Origin: Devosia naphthalenivorans
GTDB taxonomy: Bacteria; Pseudomonadota; Alphaproteobacteria; Rhizobiales; Devosiaceae
DNA length: 64,000 nucleotides
Reading direction: 5' to 3'
NCBI RefSeq assembly: GCF_003056355.1
Contig: NZ_PYVW01000002.1
Coordinates: 372,001 to 436,000, forward strand
Shown here: positions 43,006-49,123 of the stretch, piece after piece
Position numbering within the stretch: the first letter of the stretch is position 1
Layout of the letters: each line of letters begins with the position of its first letter
Translations under genes and position numbers: made by a program
The notes under the pieces: generated by a model
The model's database searches: none
The model's input: only the letters and a program-made list of their open reading frames with translations
What the model was told of the DNA's origin: nothing

Positions 43006-43497
43006 CTACTGCATCATGACCGTGTGCGGGACATCGAAGTGGTGCTCCTCCAGATTGTTGCCATCGCCCCCGCGGTCCACCACCAGAAACTCGCTGACCC
43101 CATGCAACGGCGTCAGCACGCCATGCCAGGTGTTCATGGCAATATTGACGCCTTGCCCCGGCGCCGTGAGGAACGCCCGCGGCACGTCCGGAATGCCCGA
43201 AAGATCACCCGCAACAATGACCAGGAACGGCAGATCGCCGAGCGGAAAAAACGCTTGGCTCCCGAGCGGATGACGCTCCACAAGTCTGAGGCTCAGCGGC
43301 AGCTCATAAGGCTTACCCCGAAAGATGGAGATCAGCGGCCGCGGATGAACGCCGCCCAGCTCCACGCGCGCGAGATCGTGGTAGCGTTCCGTCATCCCCC
43401 CATTGATGGGGTAGTGATTGGCCCCCTCTTTCTGGATCACCTGCCCGAATGGGGCAAAGGCCTCGGGCGTCAGCGGTTCGATCAGGATCGTGCTCAT
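43006..43497 (-). CDS. allA: Ureidoglycolate lyase
   Basis: The 163-residue protein splits (S)-ureidoglycolate into glyoxylate and urea, the last step of allantoin use. It shows the AllA pattern: LTPEAFAPFGQVI at the start, FRGKPYELPLSLRLVERHPL, SQAFFPLGDLPFLVIVA and GVNIAMNTWHGVLTPL. ATG 43497 overlaps the allE stop by 4 bases; the frame extending to 43596 is discarded. The glyoxylate formed can be used by malate synthase G encoded at 60015-62177. Confidence 0.94.
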   Translation of the reverse strand: MSTILIEPLTPEAFAPFGQVIQKEGANHYPINGGMTERYHDLARVELGGVHPRPLISIFRGKPYELPLSLRLVERHPLGSQAFFPLGDLPFLVIVAGDLSGIPDVPRAFLTAPGQGVNIAMNTWHGVLTPLHGVSEFLVVDRGGDGNNLEEHHFDVPHTVMMQ

Positions 43498-44315
43498 GGC
43501 ATCAGCTTCATGTGGCGGTTGACGTCCTTGTAGAGCAGATAGCGGAACCGTCCCGGCCCGGCGTAGCAGGCTTGCGGGCAAAACGCGCGCAGCCACATGA
43601 AATCCCCGGCCTCCACCTCCACCCAGTCGCGGTTCAGCCGATACACCGCCTTGCCCTCGAGCACGTATAACCCATGCTCCATCACATGGGTTTCCTCGAA
43701 TGGAATGACCGCGCCCGGCTCCAGCGTCACGATATTGACGTGCATGTCGTGCCGGACATCGTCGGGCTCGACGAAGCGCGTGGTCCCCCAGCGATCGTTC
43801 GTTCCCGCCATCCAGTTGATCGGCTGCTCGCGTTCATTGGCCACGAAGGCGCTGGGCGCTTCGATCCCGTCGACCGCTTCATAGCGCTTGCGGACCCAGT
43901 GGAAACGCACCGGCGCCGTGCCCTTGTTATACAGGCTCCAACTCACCCCCGGCGGCAAGAACGCATAGCCGCCTTCTTCCAGCAAATGGCTTTGCCCCTC
44001 GATGGTCAGCGTCGCCTGGCCGGCGACCACGAACAACACGCCCTCGGCGCCCTTGTCGGGTTCTGGCCGCATGCTGCCGCCGCCGGGCAGCACCTCAACG
44101 ATGTATTGCGAGAAGGTTTCGGAAAAGCCCGATAGCGGCCGCGCGATCACCCAGGCGCGCGTCTGGTCCCAATGGGGCAGATAGCTGGTGACGATGTCGG
44201 TCATCACCCCGCGCGGGATCACGGCATAGGCCTCGGTGAATACCGCCCGGCCGGTATGCAAAGTCGTCTGGCCGGGCAGGCCGGCCGCCGGGGTTGCATA
44301 GGTGGAAGTGGACAT
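43494..44315 (-). CDS. allE: (S)-ureidoglycine aminohydrolase
   Basis: The 273-residue bicupin releases ammonia from (S)-ureidoglycine to give ureidoglycolate. Two cupin halves are visible: the first with FVVAGQATLTIEGQSHLL and GGYAFLPPGVSW, the second with PFEETHVMEHGLYVLEGKA and GDFMWLRAFCPQACYAG, holding the metal-binding Glu/His/Gln set of the AllE (YlbA) family. ATG 44315 follows an aggaga site. It is translationally coupled to allA. Confidence 0.93.
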   Translation of the reverse strand: MSTSTYATPAAGLPGQTTLHTGRAVFTEAYAVIPRGVMTDIVTSYLPHWDQTRAWVIARPLSGFSETFSQYIVEVLPGGGSMRPEPDKGAEGVLFVVAGQATLTIEGQSHLLEEGGYAFLPPGVSWSLYNKGTAPVRFHWVRKRYEAVDGIEAPSAFVANEREQPINWMAGTNDRWGTTRFVEPDDVRHDMHVNIVTLEPGAVIPFEETHVMEHGLYVLEGKAVYRLNRDWVEVEAGDFMWLRAFCPQACYAGPGRFRYLLYKDVNRHMKLMP

Positions 44316-44386
44316 TGGTCTCCTGACGCGCAGAGCAGTATCGGTAGCCAATGAGATAGCGCAGTTTACCGGCGCCCAAAAGTGGG

Positions 44387-44731
44387 TCAGGCGCTTCCCT
44401 GCTGCTCTGGCGTTTCCAGGTTCCGCTGAAGCTTGCTCAGCATCATGCTGGCATAGGCGGCATAGGGGCCGATCCAGCGTTCGTGGATGGCCTGGATCGG
44501 CAGCGCGTCAAGATGGTTCCAGCGCTCGCGCCCACGCCGTTCGGCGATGACGAGCCCCGCCTGCGCCAGCACGCCCAGATGCTGCATCACCGTGCAGCGA
44601 TCCAGCTCCGGCATCAGCTCGCAGAGCGCTCCGGTCGTGCGCGGCTCAACCTTGAGCAGGTCCAGCAATTGCCGCCGGACGCGGTGGCTCAGGGCCTTGA
44701 AAATGAGATCGTCCTGGTCGTCTGTTGACAT
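44387..44731 (-). CDS. ArsR-family repressor
   Basis: The 114-residue winged-helix regulator has KALSHRVRRQLLDLL, then ALCELMPELDRCTVMQHLGVL as the recognition helix region, and the wing GLVIAERRGRERW. No cysteine pair for metal is present, so it is of the metal-independent ArsR type often paired with an SRPBCC protein. Its start codon lies inside the inverted repeat at 44730-44749 and no ribosome-binding site precedes it, which suggests a leaderless message and self-repression. It is divergent from the SRPBCC gene. Confidence 0.9.
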   Translation of the reverse strand: MSTDDQDDLIFKALSHRVRRQLLDLLKVEPRTTGALCELMPELDRCTVMQHLGVLAQAGLVIAERRGRERWNHLDALPIQAIHERWIGPYAAYASMMLSKLQRNLETPEQQGSA

Positions 44732-44766
44732 GTTATGTTTCTATAACATATTGTGTTGCGGGTCAA
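44725..44766. promoter_or_regulatory. Divergent promoters with ArsR-type operator
   Basis: A perfect inverted repeat atgttat-6-ataacat (44730-44749) lies between the two start codons. On the plus strand ttgaca (44725-44730) and catatt (44747-44752), 16 bases apart, flank it and would drive the SRPBCC gene. On the minus strand ttgacc (44761-44766) and tataga (44740-44745), 15 apart, would start transcription at about the arsR ATG. A repressor bound to the repeat would block both promoters. Confidence 0.72.
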
Positions 44767-44782
44767 GTAGAGGATGTGAACG

Positions 44783-45244
44783 ATGGCATATGAATTCACG
44801 GTAAGCGGACGCATCGCCAAGCCGGTGCATGAGGTGTTCGAGGCAGTGGCTGATCCCGCCAGCCTCTCGGGCTATTTCACCACCGGCGGCGCCAAGGGGC
44901 GTCTCGAAACTGGTGCCACGGTGACCTGGGACTTTGCCGATTTTCCCGGCGCCTTCCCTGTCGAGGTGGTGGAAGTCGAGCAGGACAAGAAGATCGTCCT
45001 GCGCTGGGACGCGGACGGGGGTGACAGTCCGGGTGAGGCTGCGACCAAAACGACGATAACGATGACCTTCGCCCCACTCGAAGACGGTCGGACGCGCGTG
45101 TCGATCAAGGAGGAAGGCTGGCGCGAAACGCCCGCCGGGCTCAAGTCATCCTACGGCAATTGCGAAGGCTGGACCGGCATGATCTGCGCCATGAAAGCCC
45201 GTCTCGAATACGGGATCAACCTGCGCGAAGGCTTGTATGTGTAG
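44783..45244 (+). CDS. SRPBCC (AHSA1-like) domain protein
   Basis: The 153-residue protein is a single START/Bet v 1-like fold: VSGRIAKPVHEVFEAVADP at the start, VTWDFADFPGAFPVEVVEVE, and a long C-terminal helix NCEGWTGMICAMKARLEYGI. Such proteins bind hydrophobic ligands in a cavity; the ligand is unknown. It is divergently transcribed from an ArsR gene, a very common pairing in which the repressor controls this gene. ATG 44783 follows a gaggatg site. The pair interrupts the purine genes and has no evident part in that pathway. Confidence 0.9.
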   Translation: MAYEFTVSGRIAKPVHEVFEAVADPASLSGYFTTGGAKGRLETGATVTWDFADFPGAFPVEVVEVEQDKKIVLRWDADGGDSPGEAATKTTITMTFAPLEDGRTRVSIKEEGWRETPAGLKSSYGNCEGWTGMICAMKARLEYGINLREGLYV

Positions 45245-45278
45245 GTCTTTCGTTCAGCCGGATCCGGTAGCAGAGTAG

Positions 45279-45314
45279 CCCTCATGGTGAGCCTGTCGAA
45301 CCACGAGGGCGTGG
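45279..45314 (+). repeat. Dispersed hairpin repeat, family B, copy 1
   Basis: The 36-base element forms a stem ccctc-a-tgg / cca-c-gaggg around a loop containing tgagcctgtcgaa. A second copy at 62212-62248 has the same loop and ends, but with ccc/ggg in place of tgg/cca, so the pairing is kept by matched changes. Confidence 0.75.
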
Positions 45315-45354
45315 CACTGATGCCTCCGCATCAGGATGCGTTCATCCCCACGGT

Positions 45355-45426
45355 GTCATTCCCGCGAAAGCGGGAACCTCACTACCCCGCCACAGAAAGT
45401 GAGATTCCCGCGTTCGCGGGAATGAC
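45355..45426. repeat. Paired hairpin repeat, family A, copy 1
   Basis: Two 28-base arms, each with its own hairpin (ttcccgcg/cgcgggaa type), face each other across a 16-base spacer, and the whole is an inverted repeat beginning gtcattcccgcg and ending cgcgggaatgac. This is the layout of paired REP-like elements. It lies downstream of both the SRPBCC gene and the fusion gene, where it could also stop transcription or protect message ends. Confidence 0.8.
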
Positions 45427-45476
45427 GCCGTGGGGGAACTGACACCGCATCGCAGCGCGTTGGACTGCGACCGCGC

Positions 45477-46892
45477 CTACCCCAACAACGCCTGCAACCG
45501 CAAAAGCGCGATCCGCTCCACCTGCGTGCTGGCGGTTGCCAGTTCCGCTTCCGCAGAATTGCTCAACCGGCTCTCAAATGCCTGGAGGATGGACGCCTTG
45601 GTATTGTCGCGCACCGCAATGATGAACGGAAAGCCGAACTTCTCGACATAGGCGGTATTGAGCCTGTTGAACCGGTCGCGTTCCGCATCAGTCAGGGCGT
45701 CAAGTCCGGCAGATGCCTGTTCCGCGCTCGAAGCTTCGGTCAGGCGTTTGGCGGCGGCGAGCTTGCCGGCCAGATCGGGATGGGCGCGCAGCACGCTCAG
45801 GCGCTCCTCGGGCGTCGCCATGCGGAACTGCGTGCGCAAGGCAAAATGCAGCCCGATGGCGGTATCATGCGCTGGCCCCAGTTCGCTCTCCCAGGCGCGT
45901 TCGGCAATCCATGGCGAGTGTTCGAAGATCGAGCCATAGCGGTGGACGAACTCTGCCTTGTCGAGCGTATGCGGCCGCACTTCGGGCGCAACATAGGGGT
46001 GCTCGCCGGCCCAATGCTCGGCGATCTGCAGCCGGGTAGGGGTCCAGACACCATCGAAGCTCCTAATGTATTCAACGAACTTCCTGAGCCCCTGGAAACG
46101 TCCGGGCTGGCCCACGAGGCGGCAATGCAGGCCCAGCGACATCATCTTGGGCGAGCCCGCCTGGCCTTCGGCATAAAGGCAATCGAAGGTGTCCTTGAGG
46201 AACTGGAAATATTCCTCGCCCGTATCGAAGCCCGGTCCGGTGACGAAGCGCATGTCGTTGGTGGAGAGGGAATAGGGAATGATGAGGTGCGGCCTGCCCT
46301 CGAAAACCCGCCAATAGGGCAGGTCGTCATCATAGGTGTCCGAGATATAGGCGAAATTACCGATTTCGCAGACCAGGTCGATGGTGTTGAGCGAGGACCG
46401 GCCAGTGTACCAGCCCCTAGGGCGTTCGCCCGTTGCTATGGTGTGAAGGCGGATCGCTTCGGCGATCTGCTCGCGCTCCTGCTCGGGCGTCATGTCCTTG
46501 TGCTGCACCCATTTGAGCCCATGGCTGGCAATTTCCCAGCCGGCGTCCTGCATCGCCGCCAGTTGCGCCGGCGCGCGCATCAGGGCCGTGGCCACGCCAT
46601 AGACCGTCACGGGAACCTGGGTTTCGGTGAACAGGCGGTGCAGCCGCCAGAAACCGGCGCGGGCGCCATATTCATACATGGATTCCACATTGGCGTGGCG
46701 CTGGCCGGGCCAGGGCGCCGCGCCCAGCACGTCGACCAGGAACGCTTCGGAAGCGGCGTCGCCATGCAGGATATTGTTTTCGCCACCCTCCTCGTAGTTC
46801 AGCACGAACTGCACGGCGATGTGCGCACCCCCGGGCCAATTGGCGTTGGGTGGGTTGGAGCCATAGCCGTGCATGTCGCGGGGATAACGCAT
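45477..46892 (-). CDS. puuE: Bifunctional allantoinase PuuE / OHCU decarboxylase UraD
   Basis: The 471-residue protein is a fusion. Residues 1-300 are a metal-independent allantoinase of the polysaccharide deacetylase fold (YGSNPPNANWPGGAHIAVQF, NYEEGGENNILHGD, SHGLKW at 123-128, RGWYTGRSSLNT), which opens (S)-allantoin to allantoate. Residues about 310-471 are OHCU decarboxylase (FEHSPWIAERAW, 323-334; RAHPDLAGKL, 369-378, with the catalytic His; GFPFIIAVRDNTKASIL), which makes (S)-allantoin from OHCU. The two consecutive steps are thus in one chain. ATG 46892 follows a ggaag site. It is divergent from uraH, whose product feeds the UraD half. Confidence 0.93.
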   Translation of the reverse strand: MRYPRDMHGYGSNPPNANWPGGAHIAVQFVLNYEEGGENNILHGDAASEAFLVDVLGAAPWPGQRHANVESMYEYGARAGFWRLHRLFTETQVPVTVYGVATALMRAPAQLAAMQDAGWEIASHGLKWVQHKDMTPEQEREQIAEAIRLHTIATGERPRGWYTGRSSLNTIDLVCEIGNFAYISDTYDDDLPYWRVFEGRPHLIIPYSLSTNDMRFVTGPGFDTGEEYFQFLKDTFDCLYAEGQAGSPKMMSLGLHCRLVGQPGRFQGLRKFVEYIRSFDGVWTPTRLQIAEHWAGEHPYVAPEVRPHTLDKAEFVHRYGSIFEHSPWIAERAWESELGPAHDTAIGLHFALRTQFRMATPEERLSVLRAHPDLAGKLAAAKRLTEASSAEQASAGLDALTDAERDRFNRLNTAYVEKFGFPFIIAVRDNTKASILQAFESRLSNSAEAELATASTQVERIALLRLQALLG

Positions 46893-47042
46893 TGTTGTCT
46901 TCCGGTTTTCCGTTAGGCGAATAGTACGGTTTCGTGCATCGAGAACAAGGTGCACAAAAGTGGACCAGATGGTAAAAAATGGGCATTGCGCAACGGCGGT
47001 GATGCGATAGTCTGTTTTTCGGGGACGACGACGGAGCAGCAA

Positions 47043-47399
47043 ATGGCAGGTGGTGCACGCCTAACCACGCATGTGCTGGATACAATGCACGGCAAGCCGG
47101 CGCGCGGCATGCGCATCGAATTGTTGTACGTGCATGGCGACCACACGCACCACATCACCGACAGCTACACCAATGCGGATGGCCGCGTGGATCAGCCGCT
47201 CCTCGATGAGCAGCAGTTCCAGCATGGCGAGTTCGAGATTCACTTTCATGTCGGTCAGTATTTCGAGCGCCTCGGTGTCGAGCTCGAAACGCAGTTTCTC
47301 GACGTGGTGCCGATCCGCTTCACCATATCCGAGGACAAGCACTACCACGTGCCGCTGCTGGTGAGCCCGTTCGCGTATTCAACCTATCGGGGGAGCTGA
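47043..47399 (+). CDS. uraH: 5-hydroxyisourate hydrolase
   Basis: The 118-residue transthyretin-like enzyme hydrolyses 5-hydroxyisourate to OHCU. It shows LTTHVLDTMHGKPARGM at the N-terminus with the catalytic His10, RIELLYVHGDH with the conserved Arg, and the diagnostic C-terminal tetrapeptide YRGS (115-118). ATG 47043 with a cggag site is chosen; the open frame back to 46950 is not conserved. It is divergent from the puuE-uraD fusion, and repeats separate it from xdhA. Confidence 0.95.
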   Translation: MAGGARLTTHVLDTMHGKPARGMRIELLYVHGDHTHHITDSYTNADGRVDQPLLDEQQFQHGEFEIHFHVGQYFERLGVELETQFLDVVPIRFTISEDKHYHVPLLVSPFAYSTYRGS

Positions 47400-47473
47400 A
47401 ACATGGACACCTCTCCCGGCATCGCACCCCTCACCTCAGCCCTCAAGGGCACCGTGTACCTTGGCCCCACGAC

Positions 47474-47546
47474 GTTATTCCCGCGAACGCGGGAATCTCA
47501 CTTTTGGAGAGCAATGAAGGGAGATTCCCGCGTTCGCGGGAATGAC
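47474..47546. repeat. Paired hairpin repeat, family A, copy 2
   Basis: Left arm gttattcccgcgaacgcggg (from 47474) and right arm gagattcccgcgttcgcggg (from 47521) form a paired inverted repeat between uraH and xdhA. About 30 bases just to its right (to 47574) are nearly repeated beside the copy at 51673-51739. Confidence 0.8.
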
Positions 47547-47620
47547 GCCGCGGGTGAATTGGTGATGCAAGAAGCGTTCGACCCAAACACTCCCTCCCTC
47601 AGGGGAGGTCCGCCCACCGC

Positions 47621-47657
47621 GTCATTCCCGCGAAAGCGGGAATCTCACTTCAGTGAG
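47621..47657 (+). repeat. Single-arm hairpin repeat, family A, next to the xdhA ribosome-binding site
   Basis: One arm (gtcattcccgcgaaagcggg, from 47621) is followed by a small stem ctcact/agtgag (47644-47657). The gag of that stem is the start of the gaggggc ribosome-binding site for xdhA (ATG 47666), so the repeat forms part of the xdhA leader. Confidence 0.7.
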
Positions 47658-47665
47658 GGGCGCAC

Positions 47666-49123
47666 ATGGTAGAGATCACCACCGCCATCCGCTTCATCCT
47701 CAACGACGAGGAAATCACCCTCACCGACCTCAAGCCGGAAACCACTTTGCTGGACTGGCTGCGGCTGGAGCGGCGGCTGCGCGGCTCCAAGGAAGGCTGT
47801 GCCGAAGGGGATTGCGGCGCCTGTACGGTGTTGGTCGGCCGGTTGATGGACGACGAGATCATCTATGACTCGGTGACGGCCTGTATCCGTTTCGTCGGCA
47901 GTCTGCACGGCACCCATGTCGTTACCATCGAGCACCTGCGCGGCAAGGACGGGGCCCTTCATCCCGTGCAGCAGGCAATGGTCGATCATCATGGCTCGCA
48001 ATGCGGTTTCTGCACGCCGGGGTTCGTGATGAGCCTTTATGGGCTCTGGATGCGCGATCCGCAGCCGGGCCAGCGCGCCATCGAAAAGGCGCTGCAGGGA
48101 AATCTCTGCCGCTGCACCGGCTATGCCCCGATCATTCGCGCGGGCAAGGCGATTTCCACCTATGGCCAGCCACAGGGCGACCCGCTCTGGGCGGAGCGCA
48201 TCGCGCTCAAGAACAAGATCACAGCCATCACCGATGGGCGCCGGGTCGAGATCGGCGGGCAGATCATAGTGCCCGCGACGCTTGACGATTTCGCCCAGGT
48301 CTATGAAGCCAATCCCGGCGCAACCATTGTTGCCGGCTCTACCGATGTCGGACTTTGGGTGACCAAGTTCATGCGGTCCATCGGGCCGGTCATCTTTATC
48401 GGTCACCTGCCCGAGTTGCGGCGCATCGAGGAACACGAAGGCGCCTTGCGGTTCTATGCGGGTGTTTCCTACTCGGAAGCTTTGCCGCTGCTCACCCGGC
48501 ATTTCCCTCACATGGCCGAGCTGTGGAACCGCATAGCGGGCGAGCAGATCCGCAATATGGGAACAATCGGCGGCAACATCGCCAATGGCTCGCCCATTGG
48601 GGACACGCCGCCGCCGTTTATCGCTCTCGGCGCCCGGCTCCATTTGCGCTGCGGCGAGCAGCGCCGCGAAATCGATCTGGAAGATTACTTCCTGGCCTAT
48701 GGCAAGCAGGACCGCCAGCCCGGCGAGTTCGTCGAGGCTGTCACCATCCCTCATCTGCCGGTGGGGGACAAATTCGCGGTCTACAAGATCTCCAAGCGTC
48801 GCGAAGAAGACATCTCGGCGCTATGCGGGGCTTTCAGGGTATCCCTGGACGAGGCCGGCGTGGTGAGCGCGGTACGGATCGCCTTTGGCGGCATGGCGGC
48901 AACGCCCAAGCGTGCAGCGACGGTCGAGGCGGCGTTGATCGGCCAGCCATGGAATTTGGACACGGTCGATGCCGCGATGGCATTGTTCGCCCAGGACTAC
49001 CAGCCGATCTCCGATATGCGCGCCAGCGCCGAATACCGTTTGTTGACCGCACAGAACTTGCTCAAGCGCTTCTATCTTGAGACAATCGGGGAAGCACAAC
49101 GCCTCAAGCGGGAGGTTGCATGA
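47666..49123 (+). CDS. xdhA: Xanthine dehydrogenase small subunit (2Fe-2S and FAD domains)
   Basis: The 485-residue subunit carries electrons from the molybdenum site to NAD. The N-terminal ferredoxin-like domain has the first cluster Cys45, Cys50, Cys53 (CAEGDCGACT) and Cys73; the second cluster uses Cys113, Cys116, Cys148 and Cys150 (CGFC, CRC). From about 200 the FAD domain follows, with TIVAGSTDVGLWVTK and GTIGGNIANGSPIGDTPP, and a CO-dehydrogenase flavoprotein C-terminal domain from about 375. It is the first of xdhA-xdhB-xdhC. A repeat sits in the leader and another separates it from xdhB. Confidence 0.96.
   Translation: MVEITTAIRFILNDEEITLTDLKPETTLLDWLRLERRLRGSKEGCAEGDCGACTVLVGRLMDDEIIYDSVTACIRFVGSLHGTHVVTIEHLRGKDGALHPVQQAMVDHHGSQCGFCTPGFVMSLYGLWMRDPQPGQRAIEKALQGNLCRCTGYAPIIRAGKAISTYGQPQGDPLWAERIALKNKITAITDGRRVEIGGQIIVPATLDDFAQVYEANPGATIVAGSTDVGLWVTKFMRSIGPVIFIGHLPELRRIEEHEGALRFYAGVSYSEALPLLTRHFPHMAELWNRIAGEQIRNMGTIGGNIANGSPIGDTPPPFIALGARLHLRCGEQRREIDLEDYFLAYGKQDRQPGEFVEAVTIPHLPVGDKFAVYKISKRREEDISALCGAFRVSLDEAGVVSAVRIAFGGMAATPKRAATVEAALIGQPWNLDTVDAAMALFAQDYQPISDMRASAEYRLLTAQNLLKRFYLETIGEAQRLKREVA

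Follow-up and report, generated by a model that had tools for sequence, protein, structure and literature searches.

Within the stretch of DNA analysed here (64,000 nucleotides, hereafter the window), a gene for an ArsR-family repressor and a gene for an SRPBCC/AHSA1 protein diverge from each other with 51 bases between them, which raises the question of how two opposed promoters, an operator and the start of the repressor gene are accommodated in so small a space, and from which base the repressor message begins. With a probability of about three in four, the locus is a compact self-regulating divergent switch, in which one ArsR dimer would shut both promoters and the arsR message would be leaderless or nearly so. 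The layout itself is well supported, and from it we infer both the binding by ArsR and the position of the arsR 5′ end.

The repressor gene (44387–44731, minus strand) encodes a protein of 114 amino acids, which scores above the cut-off for PF12840 (35.9 bits versus 27) and thereby belongs to the winged helix-turn-helix ArsR/SmtB superfamily, while remaining under the cut-offs for PF01022 (20.1 versus 22) and for the NCBIfam model HTH_metalloreg (47.5 versus 55). Its predicted structure (mean pLDDT 81.5, pTM 0.62) has ArsR-family structures as its top Foldseek matches, with E values of about 1e-5. The divergent partner, a COG3832-type protein of 153 amino acids (44783–45244, plus strand), displays an AHSA1/SRPBCC domain (PF08327, 51.7 bits versus a cut-off of 22.1), and the fold search with this protein returned Aha1-domain proteins; for both products, the structure comparison identifies general families only. 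The two adjacent genes thus form an ArsR–COG3832 pair, and the partner is divergent, not part of a co-directional operon with arsR, both in the window and in all 97 non-redundant relatives found by protein search. A Shine–Dalgarno sequence, GAGGA (44770–44774, plus strand), precedes the partner gene and has a counterpart in 97 of 97 loci, a slightly generous figure given that the best of the in-frame starts was taken.

Classical metal-sensing ArsR/SmtB repressors carry a CxC metal motif in the region of the DNA-binding helix. No such motif is present in the ArsR protein described here, and a metal-sensor reading was rejected for this reason. Two single cysteines are nearly invariant, Cys37 (115 of 124 loci) and Cys46 (119 of 124), which gives a bare hint that thiols or metalloids are sensed.

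In Devosiaceae, the two genes lie within a cluster for urate/ureide catabolism (43006–49123 in the window), which includes genes for a ureidoglycolate lyase, a bicupin, a PuuE-type deacetylase fused to an OHCU decarboxylase, an HIU hydrolase and an XdhA-like protein. In 45 of 124 loci, arsR is followed in the same orientation by a gene for an AllE-like cupin, mostly at about 50–170 bases and otherwise farther away, and the PuuE–UraD fusion is located on the opposite side of the pair from AllE in 49 of 124. Since the named loci bearing AllE are from Devosia and Pelagibacterium, the linkage to urate and ureide breakdown may be local to the Devosiaceae.

The presumed ArsR operator is a perfect inverted repeat, ATGTTAT-GTTTCT-ATAACAT (44730–44749), and was found letter for letter where the initial annotation had placed it. 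That annotation had also described the repeat as filling the space between the TTGACA and CATATT hexamers of the plus strand, 16 bases apart; position and spacing hold, and the repeat in fact extends into both hexamers, sharing the last base of TTGACA and the first three of CATATT. Similarly, the arsR start codon had been placed inside the repeat, which is correct for its A and T, the G lying just outside. On its own, a bare repeat of this geometry is unremarkable: the window contains 20 perfect repeats with seven-base arms and a six-base gap, against a mean of 5.15 over 20 shuffles, and seven of the 20 are copies of a dispersed ATTCCCGC repeat. Palindromic repeats of this dispersed kind, ATTCCCGC...GCGGGAAT, are found at 45404, 47477, 47524, 47624, 49163, 49210 and 51676. 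Shuffling the 51-nt intergenic space, to which the actual repeat adds two bases of the arsR ATG, yielded a seven-base-arm repeat with a gap of 2–10 in 11 of 2000 trials. The operator has a single exact occurrence in the 4.49-Mb genome; with up to three mismatches allowed there are 17 matches in total, compared with 13 for a reversed-pattern control, and no further copy better than three mismatches was detected. A chance origin was rejected on the strength of conservation among relatives, which places the repeat far beyond chance even though bare repeats of this type are common in the window.

The initial annotation had named a lack of conservation of the repeat among the outcomes that would refute its reading, and the reading passed this test. 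ArsR homologues (E of at most 1e-20) were present in 78 of 136 genomes of the family, with the best 30 loci being read, and 80 SRPBCC loci were taken from named genomes, these being the best 80 of 270 relatives. All 97 non-redundant protein-found loci bear the repeat, with none (87 loci), one (nine) or two (one) of the 14 arm bases mismatched, and in every one of them the arsR ATG enters the left arm by two bases, in frame. The same offset and frame recur when 27 loci found by pattern are added, giving 124 of 124; this set leaves out three weak pattern matches (L002–L004), a short record without an arsR match (L049), four places with the motif and without the gene pair (L116, L117, L120 and L166) and 40 duplicates, with loci from L173 onward being treated separately. 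The bases of the arms are 96–100% conserved, as opposed to 33–56% for those situated 4 to 14 positions beyond its end. These loci, whether counted as 97 or as 124, share ancestry and are not independent trials. Their hosts include Devosia, Pelagibacterium, rhizobia, Hyphomonas, Sphingomonas, erythrobacteria, a Bordetella and two Micromonosporaceae, several being metagenome bins, and the repeat is also carried by plasmids of Sinorhizobium, Paracoccus and Roseibium and, with two mismatches, by a Tsukamurella plasmid. Loci from genomes of the window's own genus are identical to those of named Devosia records across the 300 bases that were compared.

A search with the exact motif gave a consistent picture. 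It matched 76 of the 136 family genomes, with one exact site in each, and among the family places listed arsR starts exactly one base inside the end of the motif in 72 of 75; two of the other three come into line after correction of the alignment start, and the third falls at the end of a contig. Among the genomes of the order, 23 of 249 carry the exact motif, 22 of them beside an arsR and SRPBCC pair, and among those of the class 10 of 385 do so, with the pair alongside in seven; the family, order and class samples overlap, genome G000 being present in each.

The ATG at 44731–44729 (minus strand) is likely to be the sole start of arsR, because an in-frame TAG lies four codons upstream and no ATG, GTG or TTG intervenes before the conserved FKAL motif. 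Among the 97 protein-found loci, the in-frame stop four codons upstream is present in 84, and an in-frame ATG or GTG six codons upstream, within the other arm of the repeat, in 11. Ahead of FKAL, there is no start codon other than the embedded ATG in 81 loci, whereas the remaining 16 have one. An alternative start preceded by a Shine–Dalgarno sequence at threshold or better is available in five loci (L044, L076, L090, L094 and L113), with that of L106 falling just short. The offset of the embedded ATG is retained also where the protein has additional N-terminal residues, as in L044 and L093.

The repeat is flanked and overlapped by the elements of two opposed promoters. The −35 element of the SRPBCC promoter, TTGACA (44725–44730, plus strand), lies within the first three codons of arsR and is found in 92 of 97 loci; its −10 element, CATATT (44747–44752), reads CATAAT, CATATT or CATGAT in 53, at a spacing of 16 bases. 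On the minus strand, TTGACC (44761–44766) occupies positions −35 to −30 counted from the first base of the arsR ATG, with TTG being present in 84 of 97 loci and TTGAC in 42; TTG is absent from exactly −35 in the other 13, including the actinobacterial loci L076 and L113. The initial annotation had paired this hexamer with TATAGA, and the letters and coordinates of both were confirmed, whereas the spacing is an atypical 15 bases. Within the −10 region (44738–44745), TATAGA (44745–44740) and TAGAAA (44743–44738) are both matched by conserved counterparts, namely TATAAA in 70 of 97 loci and TAAAAA in 63, respectively; TAGAAA, separated from TTGACC by 17 bases and occupying −12 to −7 relative to the ATG, fits the usual −10 register better. 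The consensus promoter scan listed no promoter on the minus strand.

Read on the plus strand, the arsR −35 element appears as CAA or CAAG, and in rhizobia it forms part of CAAGGAG, so its conservation was also considered as that of a mere segment of the SRPBCC ribosome-binding site. CAA lies 14 bases from the repeat in 84 of 97 loci, and no other offset has it in more than 6. For the 71 loci in which SRPBCC has no N-terminal extension, the standard deviation of its distance is 1.6 nt to the repeat versus 3.8 nt to the SRPBCC gene; when extensions are counted (89 loci), the values are 1.5 and 12.7, part of the latter stemming from the extensions themselves. This tighter tie to the repeat, together with the persistence of CAAG in relatives where no SRPBCC gene faces arsR, led to rejection of the ribosome-binding-site reading.

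Those relatives are L196, L198 and L199, in which ArsR is 43–46% identical and no SRPBCC gene lies opposite; they offer the clearest evidence for telling the two promoters apart. Their repeat is ATGTAAT-6-ATTACAT, with the ATG again two bases within it, and CAAG is again found 14 bases past the repeat (a −35 CTTGA for arsR), while the TTGACA of the opposite strand is missing. Given this retention and the loss of TTGACA where no SRPBCC gene faces arsR, the embedded ATG and CAAG are most probably elements of arsR, whereas TTGACA would serve the divergent partner. An AHSA1 gene follows arsR co-directionally in L196 and L198, and the gene downstream in L199 gave no Pfam match in the short piece scanned. 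The opposite case is offered by L188, where the whole operator, TTGACA included, is intact and faces a DUF899 gene, with SRPBCC not detected; the site is therefore not tied to SRPBCC, and the partner gene is perhaps exchangeable and may have been swapped here.

More distant ArsR relatives are heterogeneous. A −35-like pentamer lies 34–37 bases before the candidate ATG, with no Shine–Dalgarno sequence at threshold, in L197, L202, L208, L209, L211 and L212, and at −26 in L205; no such layout was seen in L200, L201, L203, L204 and L206, and neither L207 nor L210 could be read. For the Tsukamurella locus L174, a pentamer resembling a −35 element was looked for and not detected, which speaks against the proposed reading. 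Repeats with seven-base arms and six-base gaps built of other half-sites (ATGCAAC, AGGCAAC) occur near the arsR starts of L202, L203 and L212, which suggests operators diverging along with their repressors. In L195 the repeat is degraded (three mismatches), a GTG start stands in place of the ATG and the neighbourhood of arsR yielded no homologue of SRPBCC; this locus counts against the proposed reading, since leaderless initiation would disfavour GTG. An ArsR paralogue (G000:C12:229303-229605) has a Shine–Dalgarno sequence and lacks the layout described here.

The absence of a ribosome-binding site before arsR, already noted for the single sequence, extends to the relatives: none of the 97 loci has a Shine–Dalgarno match at −3.4535 kcal/mol or better, a threshold quoted in the available text of PMC3616915. 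A leaderless or nearly leaderless arsR message is supported by this absence, by the TTG fixed at −35 in most loci and by the usual lack of an alternative start. Such messages are ordinary in this bacterial class, with 171 reported in S. meliloti (PMC3616915) and 375 in Caulobacter (PMC4117421). As the layout is also found in relatives without a divergent partner, leaderlessness of arsR may have preceded the divergent gene order.

A symmetric conserved site that overlaps two promoters has the layout of a shared divergent operator, and the following mechanism is envisaged. One ArsR dimer would bind the 20-bp repeat, covering on the plus strand the space between the −35 and −10 elements of the SRPBCC promoter and on the minus strand the arsR promoter from −18 to +2. 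Since the core of both promoters would be covered, a single binding event would repress them together. Transcription of arsR would start at the AUG or within about two bases of it, and translation without a Shine–Dalgarno sequence would provide little repressor. Upon release of ArsR by a signal, SRPBCC would be produced in quantity from its strong Shine–Dalgarno sequence; weak leaderless translation of the repressor combined with strong translation of the partner would favour a sensitive switch.

Other explanations would assign the same letters different roles. The arsR gene might be carried on a longer message, for example by read-through from the co-oriented puuE-uraD upstream of it in Devosiaceae, and be translated from an internal AUG without a Shine–Dalgarno sequence, in which case it would not be leaderless. 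PuuE–UraD does lie upstream on the same strand in the 49 loci mentioned above, and no terminator-like site was found between 45200 and 45520; nevertheless, the layout and the −35 element are kept without such a neighbour (75 of 124 loci show none within the stretch examined), and TTG holds a constant place 35 bases ahead of the ATG, so that read-through is an unlikely source of the arsR message.

It is also conceivable that the repeat, bound by ArsR, effectively controls only one promoter, or that it serves to activate SRPBCC. L196, L198 and L199, with elements of an arsR promoter only, would accord with one-promoter control, which we nonetheless regard as quite improbable given that the repeat extends into the core of either promoter and that both sets of elements are conserved. 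The dyad could even be a by-product of two overlapping opposed A+T-rich promoters, without any repressor site, and indeed TTGACAT and the TATAAA-like letters explain part of it. The contrast between its arms and the bases outside, and the altered yet still symmetric repeat of relatives that lack the opposite −35 element, make this origin very hard to sustain. The switch with one ArsR dimer acting on both promoters therefore remains the preferred reading.

ArsR/SmtB repressors acting on a shared divergent operator are familiar from smtA–smtB and similar systems, which are metal sensors. To our knowledge, the start codon does not lie within the operator in systems of that type. In the literature searched, which covers journals in part, no account of a shared ArsR operator that incorporates a start codon was found. 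The nearest proven case is acuR of the acuR-acuI-dddL operon of Rhodobacter sphaeroides, likewise an alphaproteobacterial autorepressor, whose leaderless message was mapped by 5′-RACE and starts at the AUG (PMC3017554). As at arsR, its operator is an inverted repeat with a six-base spacer that overlaps the promoter, and the promoter is similar, the centres of TTGATT and TATTAT lying 35 and 10 bp ahead of the AUG; AcuR differs in belonging to the TetR family and in heading a single co-directional operon, a divergent second promoter not being described in the available text of that report. Leaderless autorepressors with overlapping operators are thus already known, and the arsR/SRPBCC site is a deeply conserved variant.

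Other systems share particular features. The cvkR/cas12k locus of Anabaena also combines a leaderless repressor mRNA with a conserved palindromic site and a short distance between the two start codons (82 nt), but CvkR is of the MerR type, is associated with a CRISPR-associated transposon and neighbours a gene that is itself leaderless, and the available part of that report does not locate the start codon within the operator (PMC9938897). Leaderless repressor messages of λ cI and Tn1721 tetR, from families other than ArsR, are named in PMC3017554 and PMC9938897. The ArsR–COG3832 pair described in PMC2701414 involves both protein families, a stable pairing and an ArsR subgroup without conserved metal motifs; in the text available it is a predicted operon and candidate toxin–antitoxin system, whereas the present genes are divergent with a shared predicted operator. 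A COG3832–ArsR pair of Stenotrophomonas showed no toxicity in the available account (PMC7650669), and a toxin–antitoxin reading of the arsR/SRPBCC pair was rejected for lack of support.

For this ArsR subgroup, which is found in Alphaproteobacteria and reaches into Actinomycetota, it appears reasonably probable that operator, start codon and two promoters are fused into a near-invariant cassette of about 45 bp, in which leaderless translation would keep the ratio of repressor to target low. Because the first bases of the repressor message would be letters of the operator, promoter, operator and translation start could not evolve separately. If this is true, the cassette would represent a conserved natural case of operator, promoter and translation start as a single element, and would provide many natural variants with which to ask why repressors so often have leaderless messages. 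Its DNA signature would locate this uncharacterized repressor/SRPBCC pair in genomes and predict the target of the repressor, and the likely true start of arsR would be fixed for annotation.
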